A DNA stretch of 64,000 nt. Origin: Enterobacter hormaechei subsp. hoffmannii. Its GTDB lineage: Bacteria; Pseudomonadota; Gammaproteobacteria; Enterobacterales; Enterobacteriaceae. The position numbers and the translations under genes are program-made. The notes beneath the pieces are model-generated. The model was given only the letters and a program-made list of their open reading frames with translations. It had not been told where the DNA came from and made no database searches. Location: positions 4,154,001-4,218,000 of the forward strand of contig NZ_CP017186.1 of the NCBI RefSeq assembly GCF_001729745.1. The letters are read 5' to 3'. This document shows, in pieces, positions 5,755 to 57,985 of the stretch. The first letter of the stretch is position 1, and each line of letters starts with the position of its first letter.

Positions 5755-7512
5755 CTAACGCCGCTGCGCATTATTGTAACTGTCGTAGCTCATATCGACA
5801 CGCTCCCCAAAAATCTCAATATCCGCCCAGGGCTTCACGACAGATTTCACTTTCCTCTGCCTTAATGCGCGGTCAAGTTCTTCTCTGGTCAATGCCTCCG
5901 GCATTTTCCACGCGTCCCCGGCGATCCTCCAGCCCGTGTTGGTTTGTGTGTAAGCCACGATCGTGCGATCGGTAAATTGAAATAGCACGGCTTCAGGCTT
6001 GCCGTCGCCGTTAAGATCCAGCGGCATGAGTAAACAGTTACTCTGGGCGCTATCGCAGCTCTCAAAGCGATACTGATTGCTGAGCATGGCTTGCCACAAT
6101 GCCTTATCAGGACGAGCCATTCCCGGTGCGAGCTGGACCTGTTTTTCCAGCATCGCGGCGGTCATCTTACCTGCTCCGCCAGCGTTCCTGGAGAGAAGAC
6201 CATTTATTTCACGCTGGTGTTTTGGGTTAGAGATAAACTGCGGATCGTTTTGCAGCGTGAGCATTGCCTCCCGCCCCTTTCGTCCAGCGTTACTGAGCAT
6301 ATACAGGCTGACTTGATCCGCCGTTATTCTGCCGTCCTGATAGCGGGCCATATGGCTTGCAACGCTTATTCGCCACGGATCCAGCACGGGGGTATGGATC
6401 AACGCCAGGAAGATGAGGGAAAGCAGCCCGGTCGTCGGGATGACGTACGCATGGATCTTCTGCGGTTCACGGCGCTGAATCAGAACGCTGGCGCAAAAAC
6501 CGACCGCCCAGACCAGCGCCACGATGGTTATCAATACCCCGTACAGACGCTCGGGTGACCAGCCGTATTGCGAAATGCGTAGCCACAGCGCCCACCCCGC
6601 CAGAACCGGATACGCGGGTACGATAGCCACAGCAAGGCGAATCATCCCTCGCAACGGGGCATAGTAAGGCAGCGTTTGACGCTGTGGATGCCACACTATC
6701 GTCACCAGGAATAACAGCAGCAGCGCTAAGGTGGTCAGCAAGCCCGCGGCGGATATTCTGGCTGAAATGGATTCAAAGCCGACAAAAGGCAACGCGCCAA
6801 TAAAGAGCAGCGCCAGCGCCGCCATCAGGGGAAGCAGACCGGTGGCTATGAGGGTCAGCAGATTTTGCAGGGCAAGGATTAACCTTACCTGCATGCGCGT
6901 GAGCACGGCCGCACTGGCTGAAACCACGCCAATCGCCACTGAAATAAATCCGTCAGAATGAAAGAAAAGCCGATCAAAAAAGCCGATGCCGATAAGTTCG
7001 AAAAGCTCGGCCCAGAGGAAAAGCACCAGCCAGAAGAGACCATTCGAAACAAAAATAATGAGCAGTGTCAGCGCGTTATGCCAGTTTCGTTGATAAAAGT
7101 CGCTGTAGAACGAGGTAGTCGGGACGGGATCCAGACGCCGCTGAAGCCATGGCAACACGAACAGCGTCATCAGCAGCAGATGAAAGCCGAAAACGAGCAT
7201 CTCATCTCTGAGATTCCAGCTTTCGAGTCCTGCAACGCTCCACTTAAGCCAGCCGCCCATACCCGCGACTGCCGCGCCGATCATCCCGAGTGACAGCCAC
7301 AACAATGGCTTTCTGAATGACGTCATGGCAAGAGACAACGTGGTTGTCATTACCACGGTGGCAGGTACTACACACATCAGCCACAGCGTATCCGATGGCA
7401 ATTTTGCGTACTCGATATACCACGTAATTACATAGCAAATTACGCCCTGTAGAGCCCCCGCCAGCACGACGGCTACGCGCGTTGAAGGAGATAACGTCTC
7501 ACGGTTTTCCAT
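5755..7512 (-). CDS. yhgE: DUF4153-family inner-membrane protein YhgE
   Basis: A 585-residue polytopic membrane protein; E. coli YhgE, at the same location between hslO and pckA, has 574 residues. The first roughly 390 residues are a run of about ten to twelve hydrophobic segments. The last roughly 190 residues are soluble and include DLNGDGKPEAVLFQF, which resembles an FG-GAP or calcium-binding loop. No catalytic motif is evident and the function is not established. It reads away from pckA. The ATG at 7510-7512 begins MENRETLSPSTRVAV; a GGGATGAG stretch precedes it. Confidence 0.88.
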   Translation of the reverse strand: MENRETLSPSTRVAVVLAGALQGVICYVITWYIEYAKLPSDTLWLMCVVPATVVMTTTLSLAMTSFRKPLLWLSLGMIGAAVAGMGGWLKWSVAGLESWNLRDEMLVFGFHLLLMTLFVLPWLQRRLDPVPTTSFYSDFYQRNWHNALTLLIIFVSNGLFWLVLFLWAELFELIGIGFFDRLFFHSDGFISVAIGVVSASAAVLTRMQVRLILALQNLLTLIATGLLPLMAALALLFIGALPFVGFESISARISAAGLLTTLALLLLFLVTIVWHPQRQTLPYYAPLRGMIRLAVAIVPAYPVLAGWALWLRISQYGWSPERLYGVLITIVALVWAVGFCASVLIQRREPQKIHAYVIPTTGLLSLIFLALIHTPVLDPWRISVASHMARYQDGRITADQVSLYMLSNAGRKGREAMLTLQNDPQFISNPKHQREINGLLSRNAGGAGKMTAAMLEKQVQLAPGMARPDKALWQAMLSNQYRFESCDSAQSNCLLMPLDLNGDGKPEAVLFQFTDRTIVAYTQTNTGWRIAGDAWKMPEALTREELDRALRQRKVKSVVKPWADIEIFGERVDMSYDSYNNAQRR

Positions 7513-14793: not shown

Positions 14794-14842
14794 CCCCTCA
14801 CCCTAACCCTCTCCCCAAAGGGGAGAGGGCCGGGGTGAGGGG
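14794..14842. repeat. GAGGG-type palindrome, single complete unit
   Basis: An almost perfect palindrome with arms CCCCTCACCCTAACCCTC and GAGGGCCGGGGTGAGGGG around a CCCCAAAGGGG core, placed 11 bases after the yhgF stop. It can form a long hairpin in RNA and probably marks the transcript end. It belongs to the dispersed family listed under 9544. Confidence 0.8.
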
Positions 14843-29507: not shown

Positions 29508-29582
29508 GCCCTCACCCCGGCCCTCTCCCACAGGGAGAGGGAGAACAATTTGTAGGTCGGGTAAGCGCAGCGCCACCCGACA
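29508..29582. repeat. GAGGG-type palindrome followed by REP half-element
   Basis: GCCCTCACCCCGGCCCTCTC with CAGGGAGAGGGAGAA (29508-29545) is a partial GAGGG-family unit. A REP-family unit TGTAGGTCGGGTAAGCGC with CGCCACCCGACA follows at 29551-29582. They fill the gap between convergent malT and glpR. Confidence 0.7.
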
Positions 29583-44935: not shown

Positions 44936-46229
44936 GGTATGAACCGGGAACATGGGTAACACTTTAGACCGGATACATGGGTAACAGTTATAACTGGCAT
45001 AGAAGAGGAGACTCGCTATGCCCTGGACTGAGACCCGACCTATGCAACGCCTTGATTTCATCCGTGCCTGCCATGCAGGTACGGATTCTTTTTCTGCCCT
45101 CTGCCGTCTCTTCGGCATCAGTCGAAAAACCGGTTACAAATGGCTTCAGCGTTTTGACCCCTCTGACCTGTCATCTCTCTCTGACCGGTCACGTGCTCCG
45201 CACTCCCACTCCCGGACAGTTCCTGATGATATCGCCGGGCAGCTTACGGCCCTGAGGCAAAAACACCCTGACTGGGGCCCCAAAAAACTGCGGATGTGGC
45301 TGCTCAATCATCACGTCGATTTTACCGTCCCCGCTGCCAGTACTATCGGCGATATCCTCAAGCGTGAAGGCCTGGTTCCGGATAAAAAGCGAAAACGCAG
45401 AACCCCGGGCAATCGCCAGCCCCTGACCATCATCAGTGAGAACAATCAGGTCTGGAGCGCTGATTTTAAAGGCAAGTTCAGGCTGCTGAGCCGGAAATAC
45501 TGTCATCCCTTCACCCTCACCGACAATCACAGCCGGTATCTTCTGAGCTGCCGGGGAGCAGACCGGGAGAGCGAGCCCTTCGTCAGGCAGTGCCTGACGG
45601 ATGCGTTCCTGGAGTACGGTCTGCCGGAAGTCCTGAGAACGGATAATGGTCAGCCTTTCGCAGGAACAGGTATCGCCGGGTTAAGTCGCCTTGCAGTCTG
45701 GCTGATAAAGCTGGGCATCAGACCGGAACGCATCAGAAAGGGGCATCCGGAAGAAAACGGCCGTCATGAGCGAATGCATCGTTCGCTGAAAAGTGCAGTA
45801 AAACAGGGCAACATATTTATGACGATGGAAGAACAACAGCGGTGGTTCAGTGGCTACCGGGAAGAGTTTAACTATGAAAGGCCACATGAAGCCCTGGCGG
45901 GTGCAACGCCCGGAACGGTATGGCAACCCTCAGGCCGGCACTGGGATGGCAGGGTTCCTGAATATGCTTATCCGGAAGGAGGTACGGTCTACAGGGTGAA
46001 ATCAAGGGGGACACTCTATATGGGGAAAAAGGGGACGGTGTTCCTGAGTGAAGCGCTGACTGATGAGTACATCATGCTGGAAGAACAAGATGATGGCCTG
46101 GAGGCCATCATCTTTAATGGAATAACGCTTGCGTACTACGACCGAAAAACCCAGAGTGTGCTCCGGATAGACTGAAAAGTGTTACCTATGTTCCCGGTCT
46201 GATCTGTTACCTATGTATACGGTCATACA
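44936..46229 (+). mobile_element. IS481-family insertion sequence, complete
   Basis: A 1,294-base element flanked by the direct repeat CTTA (44932-44935 and 46230-46233). Its ends are imperfect inverted repeats of about 50 bases. Each end contains two tandem 19-base sites: ACCGGGAACATGGGTAACA and ACCGGATACATGGGTAACA at the left (44943-44961, 44968-44986), with their inverted counterparts at 46180-46198 and 46205-46223. One intact transposase gene fills the interior. The element appears complete and potentially active. Exact end bases are inferred from the duplication; starting at TATGA two bases inside is the alternative. Confidence 0.88.
45018..46175 (+). CDS. IS481-family DDE transposase
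   Basis: A 385-residue transposase. The N-terminal helix-turn-helix is near residues 25-45 (FSALCRLFGISRKTGYKWLQ). A second DNA-binding region follows, and then the retroviral-integrase-like core with Asp149 (VWSADFKG), Asp209 (LRTDNGQPF) and a Glu in the GHPEENGRHERMHRSLK region. Glu251 is the likeliest third catalytic residue, with Glu245 or 246 as alternatives. The RRPHEALAG-type block appears as NYERPHEALAG. The ATG follows AGAGGAG. No stop or frameshift interrupts it. Confidence 0.93.
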   Translation: MPWTETRPMQRLDFIRACHAGTDSFSALCRLFGISRKTGYKWLQRFDPSDLSSLSDRSRAPHSHSRTVPDDIAGQLTALRQKHPDWGPKKLRMWLLNHHVDFTVPAASTIGDILKREGLVPDKKRKRRTPGNRQPLTIISENNQVWSADFKGKFRLLSRKYCHPFTLTDNHSRYLLSCRGADRESEPFVRQCLTDAFLEYGLPEVLRTDNGQPFAGTGIAGLSRLAVWLIKLGIRPERIRKGHPEENGRHERMHRSLKSAVKQGNIFMTMEEQQRWFSGYREEFNYERPHEALAGATPGTVWQPSGRHWDGRVPEYAYPEGGTVYRVKSRGTLYMGKKGTVFLSEALTDEYIMLEEQDDGLEAIIFNGITLAYYDRKTQSVLRID

Positions 46230-51253: not shown

Positions 51254-51293
51254 GGCTCAGTCCTTTTGGAAGGTTACTGAGTCTAACCATAAC

Positions 51294-51999: not shown

Positions 52000-52094
52000 C
52001 CCCTCACCCCGACCCTCTCCCCGAAGGGGCGAGGGAGAAAAGACCGCACCGTGCAATCCCCTCTCCCCTATGGGGAGAGGGTTAGGGTGAGGGG
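52000..52094. repeat. Composite double GAGGG-type palindrome between yhhY and ggt
   Basis: Two units in inverted order: CCCCTCACCCCGACCC with GAAGGGGCGAGGG, then CCCCTCTCCCCTATGGGGAG with GGTTAGGGTGAGGGG, joined by a linker containing GCACCGTGCAA. The whole element is almost the same as the one at 57891-57985. It fills the space between two convergent genes. Confidence 0.85.
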
Positions 52095-52099
52095 AGCCC

Positions 52100-53845
52100 T
52101 CAATACCCCGCCGTTAAATCATCCACCGACCGCGGATCCGACGCGCCAAACAGGGCCCCGTCCGGCCCGACCATAATGCTCTGGGTGCTGCCCATCGCCT
52201 CCTTCACCGCCACCTTCTGCCCGCGCTGCTCAAGCAGCTTGAGGGTATCCGGGCTAAAGCCCTTCTCCACGCGCAACTCGTCCGGCAGCCACTGGTGATG
52301 GAAACGCGGCGCATTGGTCGCTTCGGCGACGTTCATCCCAAAGTCGATGCTGTTCACTACCATTTGCAGCACGGTGGTGATAATCCGGCTCCCGCCCGGG
52401 CTGCCGGTCACCAGCCAGGTTTTGCCGTCTTTCACCACGATGGTGGGCGACATGGACGACAGCGGGCGCTTCTTCGGCCCGACCGCATTTGCATCGCCGC
52501 CGACCAGCCCGTAGACGTTCGGCACGCCCGGCTTGGCCGAGAAGTCATCCATCTCGTTGTTCAGCAAAATACCGCTGTTGCCCGCCACAATCCCGGTGCC
52601 GAAGGTGGTGTTGAGCGTGTATGTCACCGCCACCGCGTTTCCGTCTTTGTCCACGACCGAGAAGTGGGTGGTCTGGTTACTTTCATACGGCGCCAGCTTG
52701 CCCGGGCGGATCTCGCTGGACGGTTTAGCCTTGTTGATGTCGATCTCATCGGCAATCGATTTGGCATAGGCTTTGTTGGTCAGCGCCTGCCACGGCACCT
52801 TCACGAAATCCGGATCGCCAAGGTATTCCGAGCGGTCCGCGTAGGCGCGCTTTTCCGCCTCCGCCATCACCTGCATGGCATCGGCACTACCGAAGCCGAA
52901 CTTGTGCATATCGAAGTTTTCCAGAATATTGAGGATCTGCACAATGTGAATGCCCCCGGAGGACGGCGGCGGCATAGAGAAGACCTCGTAGCCGCGATAG
53001 GTGCCGCTAATCGGCTCGCGCTCCACCGCCTTATATTCCGCCAGATCCGCTTTGGTGATCAGCCCGCCGTTCTTCTGCATCTCATCGGCAATCTGATCGG
53101 CAATCGGCCCCTTATAGAAGGCGTCCGGACCGTTTTCGGCAATCAGTTCGAGACTTTTTGCGAGGTTCTTCTGCACCAGCTTATCGCCCTTCTTCAGCGG
53201 CTCGCCGTCTTTCCAGAAGATAGCCTTGCTGTTTTCATGATTGGGAATAACTTCGCTGCCGTAGGTTTTGAGGTCGTCCGCCAGCGCGTCGTTGACGACG
53301 AAGCCGTCGCGCGCCAGCCTGATGGCAGGCTGCACCACTTTATTCAGCGGCAGCGTGCCGTATTTTTCCAGCGCCAGCGAGAACCCCGCAACAGTGCCCG
53401 GCGTGCCGGAGGCAAGGTGCGAGGTCAGGGATTTTTTACTGTCCGGATTGCCCTGATCGTCGAGGAACATATCGCGGGAGGCCTGATTCGGTGCCATCTC
53501 ACGAAAGTCGATGGCCGTAGTTTTACCGTCTTTCGTGCGCAGCATCATAAACCCGCCGCCGCCCAGGTTCCCCGCCTGTGGATGCGTCACCGCCAGCGCG
53601 TACCCGACCGCGACCGCCGCATCCACCGCGTTACCGCCCTGTTTAAGAATATCGACGCCCACCTGAGTTGCCAGCGCGTCAACCGAGGCCACCATGCCGT
53701 GCGTCGCCCGCACGGGATGAAAAACATCCTCCTCCACGCCGTAAGAGACCGGAGGAGCGGCGGGCGGGTTGGCCGCCACGGTAAATGTGCCGCCTGCCAT
53801 CAGCGCAGCGATGGCGACCCAGCGCAAAAAGGTTGGTTTCATCAT
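52100..53845 (-). CDS. ggt: Gamma-glutamyltranspeptidase (periplasmic)
   Basis: A 581-residue precursor (E. coli 580) that breaks down glutathione and other gamma-glutamyl compounds in the periplasm. A signal peptide is visible (MMKPTFLRWVAIAALMAGG..., cleavage near VAA-NPP, about residue 25). The precursor splits itself at the Thr of NQTTHFSVVD, about residue 392, whose new N-terminal Thr is the nucleophile. The small-subunit motifs NNEMDDF and SMSPTIV follow. It is monocistronic. A single extra Met at the start is ambiguous (MM). Confidence 0.96.
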   Translation of the reverse strand: MMKPTFLRWVAIAALMAGGTFTVAANPPAAPPVSYGVEEDVFHPVRATHGMVASVDALATQVGVDILKQGGNAVDAAVAVGYALAVTHPQAGNLGGGGFMMLRTKDGKTTAIDFREMAPNQASRDMFLDDQGNPDSKKSLTSHLASGTPGTVAGFSLALEKYGTLPLNKVVQPAIRLARDGFVVNDALADDLKTYGSEVIPNHENSKAIFWKDGEPLKKGDKLVQKNLAKSLELIAENGPDAFYKGPIADQIADEMQKNGGLITKADLAEYKAVEREPISGTYRGYEVFSMPPPSSGGIHIVQILNILENFDMHKFGFGSADAMQVMAEAEKRAYADRSEYLGDPDFVKVPWQALTNKAYAKSIADEIDINKAKPSSEIRPGKLAPYESNQTTHFSVVDKDGNAVAVTYTLNTTFGTGIVAGNSGILLNNEMDDFSAKPGVPNVYGLVGGDANAVGPKKRPLSSMSPTIVVKDGKTWLVTGSPGGSRIITTVLQMVVNSIDFGMNVAEATNAPRFHHQWLPDELRVEKGFSPDTLKLLEQRGQKVAVKEAMGSTQSIMVGPDGALFGASDPRSVDDLTAGY

Positions 53846-53967
53846 TATTGTTCTCCAGGTGAAGGGGCCTATATTCCCCGCTTAAGCCTGGTTCACAACT
53901 CTTAAAAAATCATCGTTATGCCGGAATCAGGATAAACTTAAGAGAAGCCTCAAAGGAGGAGATAACC

Positions 53968-54339
53968 ATGAAACGATTACCGATCCTGATCGCGCTGCTT
54001 CCGTTCGCCGCGCTCGCACAGCCGATAAACACGCTGAACAACCCGAACCAGCAGGGCTATGTCATTCCGAGCCAGCAGCGTATGCAGACGGAGATGATGA
54101 GCCAGCAACAGCAGCAGAAAGGGATGCTTAATCAGCAGTTAAAGACGCAGACCCAGGTGCAGCAGCAGCACCTGCAAAACCAGATGAACGCTAATACCCA
54201 GCGCGTGCAGCAGGGCCAGATGCGCGAGCAGCCGCTGTCAAACTCAAACGGTGGGATGTTAGGGGGCGGGATGTCGCAAAGCAGCGGTCAGCAGCATATG
54301 CTGCCGACCCAGCAGAACGGCAGTATGCTTAATAAATAA
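53968..54339 (+). CDS. yhhA: DUF2756 family secreted protein YhhA
   Basis: A 123-residue exported protein of unknown function, shorter than the 146-residue E. coli YhhA. The signal peptide is [18 protein letters not shown]. The mature part is very rich in Gln and Met with few hydrophobic residues (for example [20 protein letters not shown]), so it is probably disordered or coiled-coil-like. A strong AAGGAGG precedes the ATG. Conservation is highest at the N-terminus ([10 protein letters not shown]). Its last 11 bases overlap the convergent ugpQ. Confidence 0.9.
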
Positions 54340-55069
54340 AGTTCGGCCCGATCTGGTCAATCGCATCGGTACAGATGCTGTCCACGCCCCAGCGCAGCAG
54401 CTCGGCTGCACGCTGGGGTTTGTTGACGGTGTAGACCAGGATATGCAGACCGGCCTCTTTCAACAGCGTCACGCGCGCTTCATCCAGCAGCTTATGGTTG
54501 AGGTGGATCGACACGCAACCTAAGCGGGCAGTCAGCGCGCGCCAGTCTTCTCGCCACTCATCCAGCAGCAGCCCGCGCGGCAGCTCTGGTACGGCCGCCT
54601 GTGCCGCTTCCAGCGCGTCGATGTCAAACGACGACAGCAGCGGTACCGTCATCCCTTCCCACAGCTCACGCGCGGCCAGCGCGATGACTTTGCCCGTCAG
54701 CGGCCCGGTGCCGGTGGTCGGTTTGATTTCGATGTTGGCCATCATGCCGTGCTGGCGGCAGCGGTCCGCCACTTCCGCCAGCAGCGGCAGCGGTTCACCT
54801 TTGAATTCCCCGCTGAACCAGCTTCCGGCATCCACCTTCAGCAGATCGCGCCACGGCAGTTCGCCCGCCACGCCCCAGCCGTTGCTGGTGCGTTCAAGGT
54901 TGTCGTCATGCAGCAGGAAAATTTCGCCGTCCTTCGACAGCTTGGCGTCGAACTCGATCATCGTGTGGCCGTAGCGCGCGCCAGCGTCAATTGCCGCCAG
55001 GGTGTTTTCCGGCGCCAGTTTACCGCCACCACGGTGGGCGACGATGTGGGGGTAAGGCCAGTTGCTCAT
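54329..55069 (-). CDS. ugpQ: Glycerophosphodiester phosphodiesterase, cytosolic
   Basis: A 246-residue enzyme (E. coli 247) that hydrolyses glycerophosphodiesters to glycerol-3-phosphate and the alcohol. The GDPD signature is [20 protein letters not shown] near residues 9-28, including the His/Arg catalytic pair. [20 protein letters not shown] supplies the metal ligands. No signal peptide is present, so it acts on substrate imported by UgpBAEC. Its start overlaps the ugpC stop by four bases. It is the last gene of ugpBAECQ. Confidence 0.97.
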
Positions 55070-56136
55070 ACTCGTTGTCCTGTTTCACCGTCAAATAAGT
55101 GCAGGTGATTTTCCGGCATATGCAGCCACAGCGTGCTGCCTGCTTTCGGGCGCTCCTGATGCGGCAGACGCACTACCAGCTTTTGCTCGCCCCAGCGTCC
55201 GTGCGCCAGGTTGTCTGCACCCAGCATCTCCAGCGTGTCCATCACCAGCGGCACGCCGCCGTCCGCCTGAGACGTCAAACCAATATGCTCCGGGCGGATA
55301 CCAAGCGTCATCTTACGCCCGGCGTAGCCACGATAGTACCAGTTGATCGGCAACGCCATCCCGCTTTCCAGCTCAAAATGGGTTCCTGCAGCATTGATCC
55401 GCCCGTCCAGCAGGTTCATCGCCGGGCTGCCGATAAAACTCGCCACAAAACGGCTGGCCGGTTTTTCGTAGACTTCCACCGGGGTGCCAATCTGCTCGGC
55501 GATGCCTTTGTTCATCACCATCACGCGCTGGGCGAGAGTCATGGCCTCTACCTGATCGTGGGTCACGTAGAGGGACGTGGTTTTAAGGCGGCGATGCAGC
55601 TGCTGTAGCTCAAGGCGCATCTGCACGCGCAGCTTGGCGTCGAGGTTTGACAGCGGTTCGTCGAACAGAAAGACCGCCGGGTCGCGCACGATGGCGCGCC
55701 CCATCGCCACGCGCTGACGCTGGCCACCCGAAAGCTCACGCGGGCGACGCTTGAGCAGGCCGTCAAGCTCCAGAATGCGCGCGGCTTCTTTCACGCGCTC
55801 CTCGATATGGCCTTTGCCCATGCCGCGAATTTTCAGCCCCCAGGCCATGTTCTCTTCCACGCTCATGTGCGGATAGAGGGCGTAGTTCTGGAACACCATC
55901 GCGATGCCGCGATCTTTGGGCTCCATCTCGGTGACGCGCTGGCGGTCAATCCAGATATCCCCGGACGTTACGCGTTCCAGCCCCGCCACCATGCGCAGCA
56001 GCGTGGATTTCCCACAGCCGGACGGGCCGACCATGACGATAAATTCCCCGTCCGCCACGTCGAGCGTCAGCGGCTGAATGACCTGGGTTTTGCCGTCCCA
56101 GCTTTTGGTTACTGCCTGTAATTTTAAACCTGCCAT
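55066..56136 (-). CDS. ugpC: sn-glycerol-3-phosphate ABC transporter ATPase
   Basis: A 356-residue ABC ATPase, same length as E. coli UgpC, closely related to MalK. The Walker A is [11 protein letters not shown] near residues 37-47, signature [14 protein letters not shown], Walker [17 protein letters not shown], and the H-loop [11 protein letters not shown]. The C-terminal OB-type domain carries [10 protein letters not shown]. The reading from 56148 adds MRNK and is not used. Gene order and overlaps with ugpE and ugpQ indicate one operon. Confidence 0.97.
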
Positions 56137-56137
56137 C

Positions 56138-56983
56138 TTATTTCTCACTGTCCACTAAACCACGCACAAACGCACGCTGCATGGCTAAAACGATAACGAC
56201 CGGGGGGATAAGGGTGAGCAGCATCGCCGCCATTACCTGGTTCCAGAGGGTGGTGCCTTCGCCGGTGGCTATCATGCCTTTGATGCCTGCCACGGCGGTG
56301 CCGAGGTTGACGTCCTGAACGATCAGCAGCGGCCACAGGTACTGGTTCCAGCCGTAGATAAAGGTGATCACAAACAGCGCCGCAAGGTTGGTTTTCGACA
56401 GCGGCAGCACGATGTCGCGGAAGAAGCGCATCGGCGAGGCGCCGTCAATACGCGCGGCTTCAATCAGCTCATCCGGCAGGGTCATAAAGAACTGGCGGAA
56501 CAGGAAGGTGGCGGTCGCCGAAGCCATCAGCGGCAGGGTTAAGCCCGCGTAGCTGTCGAGCATCTTCAGATTGGCGATCACCTCCACCGTCGGGAAGATA
56601 CGCACCTCCACCGGCAGCATCAGGGTGATGAAAATCATCCAGAAAAACAGGTTACGCAGCGGAAAGCGGAACCAGACGATGGCAAACGCCGAGAGCATCG
56701 ACACCGTGATTTTGCCGACGGTGATGCCGAACGCCATGATGAAACTGTTGAGCATCATCAGCCAGAACGGCGCGCTGTTGGCCCCCACGCCCTGGGTCCA
56801 GATAGTTTTCATGTTCTCGAAAAGATGCCCGCCGGGGACGAGCGTCATCGGCGTGTCGAACACCGCTTTGGTGTCCAGCGTGGCGGCGACGAAGGCCACG
56901 TACAGTGGGAACAGGATGACGAGGATGCCCAGGATCAGCAGGGTATGGCTGAAAATCGTCAGCCCGCGACGGTTCTCAATCAT
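56138..56983 (-). CDS. ugpE: sn-glycerol-3-phosphate ABC transporter permease UgpE
   Basis: A 281-residue inner-membrane permease with six hydrophobic segments, same length as in E. coli. The EAA loop that contacts the ATPase reads [20 protein letters not shown] near residues 191-210. It pairs with UgpA to form the transport channel. Its ATG overlaps the ugpA stop by four bases; ugpC starts one base after its stop codon. Confidence 0.97.
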
Positions 56984-57867
56984 TGGTAGCGCACCTTACT
57001 TTCGACATAGCGGAACTGCACCACCGTGAGGATGATGACGAGGAACATCAGCACCACGGACTGGGCGGCAGAGGCAGAGAGATCAAGCCCGGCAAAGCCT
57101 TCGCGGTAAATTTTATAAATCAGCGTGGTCGTCGCCTGTACCGGACCGCCCGCAGTGGCGGCGTCGATCACCGGGAAGGTGTCGAAGAAGGCGTACACCA
57201 GGTTGACCACCAGCAGGAAGAAACTCACCGGGGCGATCAGCGGCAGCGACAGTTTGAAGAAGCGACGAACGGGCCCTGCGCCGTCAATCGCGGCGGCCTC
57301 CACCAGCGAACGCGGGATAGACTGTAGCGCGGCGAAGAAAAACAGGAAGTTATAGCTGATCTGCTTCCACACCGAGGCGAACACCACCAGGAACATCGCC
57401 TGACCGCTGTTCTGGGCGTGGTTCCAGTCGTAGCCAAACTCGCCCAGGAAGTGGGTAATCAGCCCGCGCCCCGGGTTAAACAGGAAGATCCACAGCACGG
57501 CGGCCACGGCGGGAGCCACAGCGTAAGGCAGCAGCATCAGGGTCTGATACAGACGGCTGCCGCGCACTACGTAATCCACCAGCGCGGCGAAGAACAGCGA
57601 CGCGACAAGACCGCTGACGGTGACCAGCGCGCTGAATTTGATCGTCGTCCAGAAGGAGTCCAGGTAGTAGCTGTCATGGAACAGCGCGGTAAAGTTGTCC
57701 AGCCCGACAAACTGGCTGGAAAGCCCGAACGGATCGACGCTTTGTACCGAGTACCACAGCGCTTCGCCCGCAGGCCAGATAAAGAAGATAACGGTGATGA
57801 CCAGCTGCGGCGCGACCAGCAGGTACGGCAGCCAGCGGGAACGGAACACCGGACGGGATGATGACAT
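56980..57867 (-). CDS. ugpA: sn-glycerol-3-phosphate ABC transporter permease UgpA
   Basis: A 295-residue inner-membrane permease with six hydrophobic segments, same length as E. coli UgpA. The EAA loop is [20 protein letters not shown] near residues 207-226. It is separated from ugpB by 129 bases occupied by a composite palindrome, which may help maintain the usual excess of binding protein over membrane components. Overlap with ugpE implies coupled translation. Confidence 0.97.
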
Positions 57868-57890
57868 AGGTTAGCTCAAGTAGGTTTTCG

Positions 57891-57985
57891 CCCCTCACCC
57901 CGGCCCTCTCCTCATAGGGGCGAGGGAGAAAAGACGGCTCCGTGCAGTCCCCTCTCCCCTATGGGGAGAGGGTTAGGGTGAGGGG
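57891..57985. repeat. Composite double GAGGG-type palindrome between ugpB and ugpA
   Basis: CCCCTCACCCCGGCCC with GGGGCGAGGGAGAAAAGAC, then CCCCTCTCCCCTATGGGGAG with GGTTAGGGTGAGGGG. It is almost the same as the element at 52000-52094, including most of the inner linker. It lies inside the ugp operon, between ugpB and ugpA. Confidence 0.85.

Follow-up and report, generated by a model that had tools for sequence, protein, structure and literature searches.

Why should two composite palindromes about 6 kb apart be alike even in the linker between their arms? The question is raised by a 64,000-nt stretch of Enterobacter hormaechei subsp. hoffmannii DNA (contig NZ_CP017186.1, positions 4,154,001 to 4,218,000; called here the window, with coordinates counted from its first letter), in which a preliminary description made from the letters alone had pointed out two such elements and proposed that they move or are copied as single units, as REPIN elements do with RAYT (REP-associated tyrosine) transposases. 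We find that both are resident copies of the TM-ECO/PIT/BoxC repeat, an intrastrand triplex motif (TM), and that each is an outward-facing inverted pair consisting of a type B arm, a linker and a type A arm. The best explanation that we can offer as a whole, to which we give a probability of roughly one half, is that arm-driven recombination rewrites such resident pairs at sites where a 3′ hairpin is kept.

The two elements have equal orientation and an identical layout of 13 outer nt, a 23-nt hairpin, a 23-nt linker, a second 23-nt hairpin and 13 outer nt. In element 1 (52000-52094, plus strand, as read from the sequence) these parts are the outer segment of the B side, which supplies the third strand of the triplex motif (52000-52012), hairpin B with 10-bp stems and a 3-nt loop (52013-52035), the linker (52036-52058), hairpin A (52059-52081) and the outer segment of the A side (52082-52094), all given on the plus strand. 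The triplex motif of the B arm reads along the minus strand from 52035 to 52001 with TCG as its second loop, and the second loop of the other arm is TTA, which makes it type A. Element 2 (57891-57985, plus strand) has hairpin B at 57904-57926, with the triplex motif on the minus strand, the linker at 57927-57949, and hairpin A with its outer 13 nt, a type A motif, at 57950-57985 (all plus strand). Element 1 directly follows the stop codon of a GNAT acetyltransferase gene, with the stop of the convergent ggt gene beyond it, and element 2 occupies the spacer separating ugpB (binding protein) from ugpA (permease) in an operon on the minus strand. The near-identity in length and unit order reported at first is real, both elements being 95 nt long and the same at 88 of 95 positions (93%). 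The linker is indeed shared (20/23), but it is not the most conserved part: it differs at 3 of 23 positions, compared with 4 of 72 in the arms. These four are confined to the left arm (4/36), the right arm being identical throughout (36/36), so that divergence is slightly higher in the linker than in the arms.

Membership of the family was assessed with the TM-ECO pattern, CCCTCNCCC-N3-6-GGGNGAGGG-N3-GGGNGAGGG, with one mismatch allowed. Three of the four arms fit this pattern exactly; in the fourth, the left arm of element 2, a single mismatch was noted by eye. Exact matches number six in the window against none expected (100 shuffles) and 142 in the genome, where the reversed pattern used as a control gave none; among 11 genomes (this one and ten relatives in the genus) the exact count ranges from 2 to 182. 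Holder et al. (2015, PMC4666352) cite Maher and colleagues (2000) for the intrastrand triplex motif TM-ECO; in the sections of their paper that we draw on, this motif, the PIT element of E. coli and its BoxC motif are treated as the same thing, and biophysical evidence for the motif is reported there. The main pair form in our material has the type B arm on the left and the type A arm on the right, with third strands outward, and our search of the genome yielded linker classes that correspond to pair lengths of about 95, 82 and 103 bp. The window also contains a related solo palindrome of 49 bp (14794-14842, plus strand) and a related short single triplex motif (29509-29541, minus strand). No open reading frame (ORF) of at least 90 aa spans the element at any of the 29 loci examined.

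Copying accounts for the shared linker. At least 17 near-full-length copies (92-95 nt) are present in the genome; the search returned 81 BLAST rows, in which a single place often appears once for each strand, and copy counts from it are lower bounds, 40 of 132 first-look candidates having been scored. Across these 17 copies at separate sites the mean pairwise identity of the linker is 0.749, compared with 0.271 for shuffled linkers (largest of 200, 0.297); the corresponding values are 0.86-0.99 for the stems, 0.85 and 0.98 for the outer segments and 0.52-0.65 for the loops. Genome-wide, then, the linkers are not random, and a linker common to copies at separate sites shows that the pair was at one time multiplied as a single unit, in line with the original proposal. 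In a collection of genomes from 84,980 species the exact linker pattern was found in 21 stretches, all of them, by record title, in Enterobacter, Pseudenterobacter, Leclercia or Silvania. The 29 loci comprise 15 between convergent genes, 12 between tandem genes, one between divergent genes and one of undetermined setting (L019 and L023 being one place; L and G numbers are our labels for loci and genomes), and most copies examined lie just 3′ of a stop codon. With dnaA, which was identified by eye at the start of the contig, taken as the replication origin, copies of the 95- and 82-bp classes are closer to the origin than a uniform distribution predicts (Kolmogorov-Smirnov p=0.003, n=17, and p=0.006, n=14).

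Comparison of the same sites in relatives suggests that position and hairpin are more conserved than sequence. By pattern, a palindromic repeat occupies the ugpB-ugpA spacer in 30 of 30 genomes (TM in 16, a REP in 9, both in 5) and the GNAT-ggt spacer likewise in 30 of 30 (18, 6 and 6), whereas a control convergent spacer, a single one chosen as repeat-free in the window, has a repeat in none of 30 and is of constant length. The residents of the two sites vary: a 95- or 82-bp pair, a solo palindrome, a short motif or a GTAG REP pair may be found, and in E. coli MG1655 a GTAG REP pair was recognised by eye between ugpB and ugpA. A 64-kb comparison with the sister species G001 (weighted identity 94%), which was not chosen by element, gave a repeat in all 11 spacers that bear one in the window and in 2 of the 22 that are repeat-free (Fisher p=4e-7). 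Two of the eleven are one G001 spacer, split in the window by an insertion sequence, and the two gains are one G001 spacer, split by a gene; when spacers mapping to one G001 spacer are joined, the counts become 10/10 and 1/21. A motif lost (31598) and a motif gained (51280), both inside predicted ORFs, are not part of these counts; opposite window position 51280, the short triplex motif gained in G001 (L247) lies near ryhB (RyhB at L001:796-861, minus strand). At 12 sites followed through eight genus genomes we found the same pair, an inverted pair, a pair of another linker class, a solo palindrome or a GTAG REP pair. When 95 regions were classified by pattern, three lacked a flank and the other 92 divided into 48 with TM, 23 with REP, 4 with both, 2 with weak TM and 15 with neither.

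The changes at individual sites were tallied by hand against G001. Of 26 sites queried, 24 were comparable, the two that were dropped being L014, without its right flank or an element, and L002, without its left flank. Nine retain class and orientation, four are inverted with the same linker class, four are inverted with another linker, three have the same orientation with another linker, two hold a solo palindrome and two a REP pair; the element is thus inverted between the sister species at 8 of 24 sites. Eight copies that are inverted but fall in the same length class (six from G001, one from G003 and one from G012) were then compared with the linkers of our genome. The linker of the copy's own site was nearest or tied nearest in six, and uniquely so in three, where 1.19 would be expected (P=1.5e-4). 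Because most of these inverted copies carry the linker of their own site, this comparison shows, on sequence grounds, that those copies flipped in place. At ugpB-ugpA the linker in G012 matches that of the window exactly but in inverted orientation (L114 = L271), and its flanks are near-identical to those of L264 and L268, and L272 is the inverse of L278 apart from one letter, also with near-identical flanks. A pair and a solo palindrome face each other at 14794, where the 49 bp of the window correspond to an 82-bp pair in G001 with equal adjacent flanks, a 33-bp difference.

Other arrangements were also encountered. At L240 in G001 the hairpin-linker unit of a pair is tandemly expanded within otherwise unchanged flanks, and in E. 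coli (L216, L217, L218) pairs occur in B-linker-A and in A-junction-B order, like circular permutations of one tandem unit. An ORF of 585 aa with a hydrophobic-looking product at 5755-7512 of the window is absent from G001, whose short spacer there has a pair of the 82-bp class.

Based on these results we propose that the hairpin arms, as strong inverted repeats, would drive the rewriting. A flip would arise by exchange between the two inverted arms of an element, a solo palindrome by slippage between the two hairpins that deletes one of them, and a new linker by template switching to another copy. Altered flanks and the exchange of TM for REP may in addition need insertion into existing hairpins, since arm homology explains neither; a short TM between two REPs (L284) and a MITE (miniature inverted-repeat transposable element) of about 430 bp within TM loops are examples of such insertion. 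The spot may stay occupied because a stable RNA hairpin 3′ of a stop codon is useful, possibly by protecting the upstream mRNA or by lowering expression of the next gene, as could be the case at ugpB-ugpA; alternatively, palindromes may attract new palindromes. More tentatively, and with distinctly less confidence than in the explanation as a whole, we suggest that bacterial chromosomes may carry fixed "palindrome docks" behind certain genes, at which selection keeps a double hairpin while structure-driven recombination inverts, halves or exchanges the resident, so that TM pairs and GTAG REPs, unrelated as they are, would be functionally interchangeable and inversion of the TM pair would be frequent enough to be visible between sister species.

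Several observations weigh against rewriting by the arms at retained sites. The 30 genomes used for each window site were the best matches of 60 genus genomes drawn, and so are close relatives. Not every region is occupied: 15 of 92 have neither TM nor REP by pattern, of which nine hold 0.6-3.6 kb of other DNA (L008, L009, L011) and three, all from G006, are short and clean (L137, L169, L177); three more resemble a decayed TM or a variant REP by eye (L142, L180, L181). The linker of another subfamily is present in two of the eight inverted copies (L242, L244). At many changed sites the 1-14 bp beside the element are also altered relative to G001, which pure arm-to-arm exchange does not predict, and the replacement of a GTAG REP by a TM cannot use arm homology at all. 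The ugpAB tree calls for a minimum of 18 state changes, a figure to be read with the tree's poor resolution and the assignment of states by hand, and alleles could be carried by recombination between species. In addition, no terminator-like site with a T-run was called at either element.

The alternative that survives best, which we nevertheless consider rather unlikely, is an active MITE-like element moved by some transposase that targets existing hairpins, turnover then being repeated insertion in or beside palindromes with loss of the old one. The nested insertions described above, together with an IS481-type element within a REP, speak for it, as do the altered flanks beside many changed copies and the existence of repeat-free orthologous regions. 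The pairs have mostly constant ends; no constant target duplication was seen by eye, and the junctions are imprecise; among 95 + 14 orthologous regions no precise empty site with target duplications was found, the junctions of the repeat-free ones being too diverged. Retention of the own site's linker in most inverted copies is also difficult to reconcile with repeated insertion. Furthermore, the element is seldom met on plasmids of E. coli (18 of 39,419 places) or in phages (2 of 50,697 records), and the exact linker pattern was found in no viral contig.

Candidate donors and precursors were considered and rejected. Of the Enterobacter plasmid matches, the three that we opened are in segments whose gene content looks chromosomal. 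The MITE of about 430 bp was rejected as the source of the 95-bp class: it holds half of one such element at its right end, but it has its own ends and shows no origin-proximal clustering (Kolmogorov-Smirnov p=0.83, n=20). This MITE-like element, without evident coding, was seen at L206, L208 and L211 and in about 17 more copies in the genome (89-95% identical to the query copy); it has terminal inverted repeats of about 14 bp, sits in the loops of short triplex hairpins and is flanked in some copies by a 9-bp duplication, and three loci that hold it (L184, L185, L192) gave no Rfam match. The rhaA-rhaD and gcvP-ygfF sites of E. coli were both rejected as clean insertions, the replaced segment being larger than the pair; at rhaA-rhaD, 785 of 5,375 matched genomes have a place that spans at least 80% of the 501-bp query. 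Flanks of at least 7 bp are shared by 27 of 4,560 end pairs, compared with 1 of 4,371 in the control, and were rejected as traces of a donor because the extension of the short motif itself accounts for 24 of these pairs and the MITE for another.

Among neighbouring and distant elements, the IS481-type insertion sequence (rve, LZ_Tnp_IS481) occupies 44936-46229 of the window within a GTAG REP hairpin and has CTTA on both sides. On plasmid p2 of Azospirillum brasilense (L252) a triplex pair lies between binding-protein and permease genes of an ABC transporter, as at ugpB-ugpA. Two Campylobacter phage records (MG065686.1, MG065691.1) match the element at 86%, which is odd for such phages, and contamination should be considered.

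Membership of the REPIN/RAYT system, as put forward in the preliminary description, is not borne out. On that explanation the pairs would be genuine REPINs, their inverted REPs moved in trans by the tyrosine transposase of a RAYT. We regard this as improbable, and a RAYT or IS200 link, looked for in our genome as well as across 60 genomes, is disfavoured. The 95-bp pairs do combine two REP-like hairpins in inverted orientation that were copied together, with a shared linker and an intergenic 3′ location. At E<=0.001, however, the Y1 transposase domain PF01797 had no match in our genome, under a search whose positive control in E. coli was detected, and it was matched in 6 of 36 genus genomes, the 30 without a match including our own. 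The triplex motif was found near none of 20 fetched Y1 loci (1.6-3.4 kb each, the best match per genome, with Y1 including IS200), and both strands of the consensus of the 95-bp class lack a GTAG or CGTC tag. GTAG-type REPs are present in the window even though the genome has no Y1 transposase, so the genome may have lost a RAYT that it once had. Whatever enzyme first copied the pairs, it is not a RAYT that this genome has today.

Ordinary terminator hairpins, inherited vertically and conserved by descent at each site, are a still less probable account. The position behind stop codons, commonly between convergent genes, would suit them, and in E. cloacae DSM 26481 (92% identity over 7.4 kb) both window elements are found at the same sites and in the same orientation, element 1 there lacking the outer part of its left arm; the linker of element 1 is unchanged at this site in DSM 26481 and in two more genus genomes (L293, L296). 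As a full account the idea is refuted by the linker common to separate sites, and elements that are inverted, or exchanged for unrelated REP families, at one site also argue against it. Predicted RNA folds are strong on both strands (z -7.4 to -9.3) and 27 of the 29 loci are flanked by genes that converge or run in the same direction, which together with the missing terminator call fits protection of mRNA 3′ ends or a step-down in expression and not intrinsic termination. Duplication of a single palindrome as an isolated local event in the window, suggested by 93% similarity and closeness only, has a negligible probability: in DSM 26481 each site has a linker identical to that of the window at that site while the two window linkers differ at 3 of 23 positions, so neither element is a recent copy of the other, and further copies in the genome are equally close (L002, 94%; L003, 93%).

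If resident pairs are indeed rewritten in this way, the result would help to explain why REP-like repeats are kept by genomes without a RAYT, and the ugpB-ugpA spacer would serve as a test bed. In the sections of Holder et al. (2015, PMC4666352) on which we rely, triplex repeats are described as sites of "genomic instability" with an unclear mechanism and no assigned function; TM-ECO loci differ between strains and exceed 300 in some Enterobacter, and no link to transposons, phages or plasmids was found by those authors. The present data resolve this instability into testable events, namely in-place inversion, pair-to-solo deletion and REP exchange, at named sites. The repeat family is known; what is new is in-place inversion and the occupancy of the same spot by unrelated hairpin families. 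In a literature search judged by titles (the top 20 of the longer lists), with the original PIT papers outside its scope, no listed title describes in-place inversion of TM pairs.

Like TM-ECO in those sections of PMC4666352, our elements are intergenic, have arms that fit the pattern and are of A (TTA) and B (CCG-like) types, and inverted pairs of A and B are known from 5 of 18 sites in E. coli MG1655. Unlike the MG1655 pairs, four of five of which seem to face inward on our own reading of the coordinates in Table 1 of that paper, the main Enterobacter pairs face outward and share linkers of 23, 10 or 31 nt; in-place inversion and GTAG REP exchange at fixed sites did not appear in the parts of the paper used here. 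REPINs, as presented in the portion of Bertels and Rainey (2011, PMC3116915) that we draw on, are extragenic replicative units of two inverted hairpin units and a spacer, and the 95-bp pairs resemble them in being an extragenic inverted hairpin pair with a spacer that acted as one replicative unit; they differ in having another sequence, no GTAG tag and no RAYT that we could find. With the GTAG REPs and BIMEs of enterobacteria, as far as the passages of Di Nocera et al. (2013, PMC3733652) consulted describe them, the pairs share a downstream and convergent location but not their sequence, which is unrelated, or the GTAG tag, a feature of REPs; and in related species these GTAG REPs and BIMEs take the very same spots as TM pairs.

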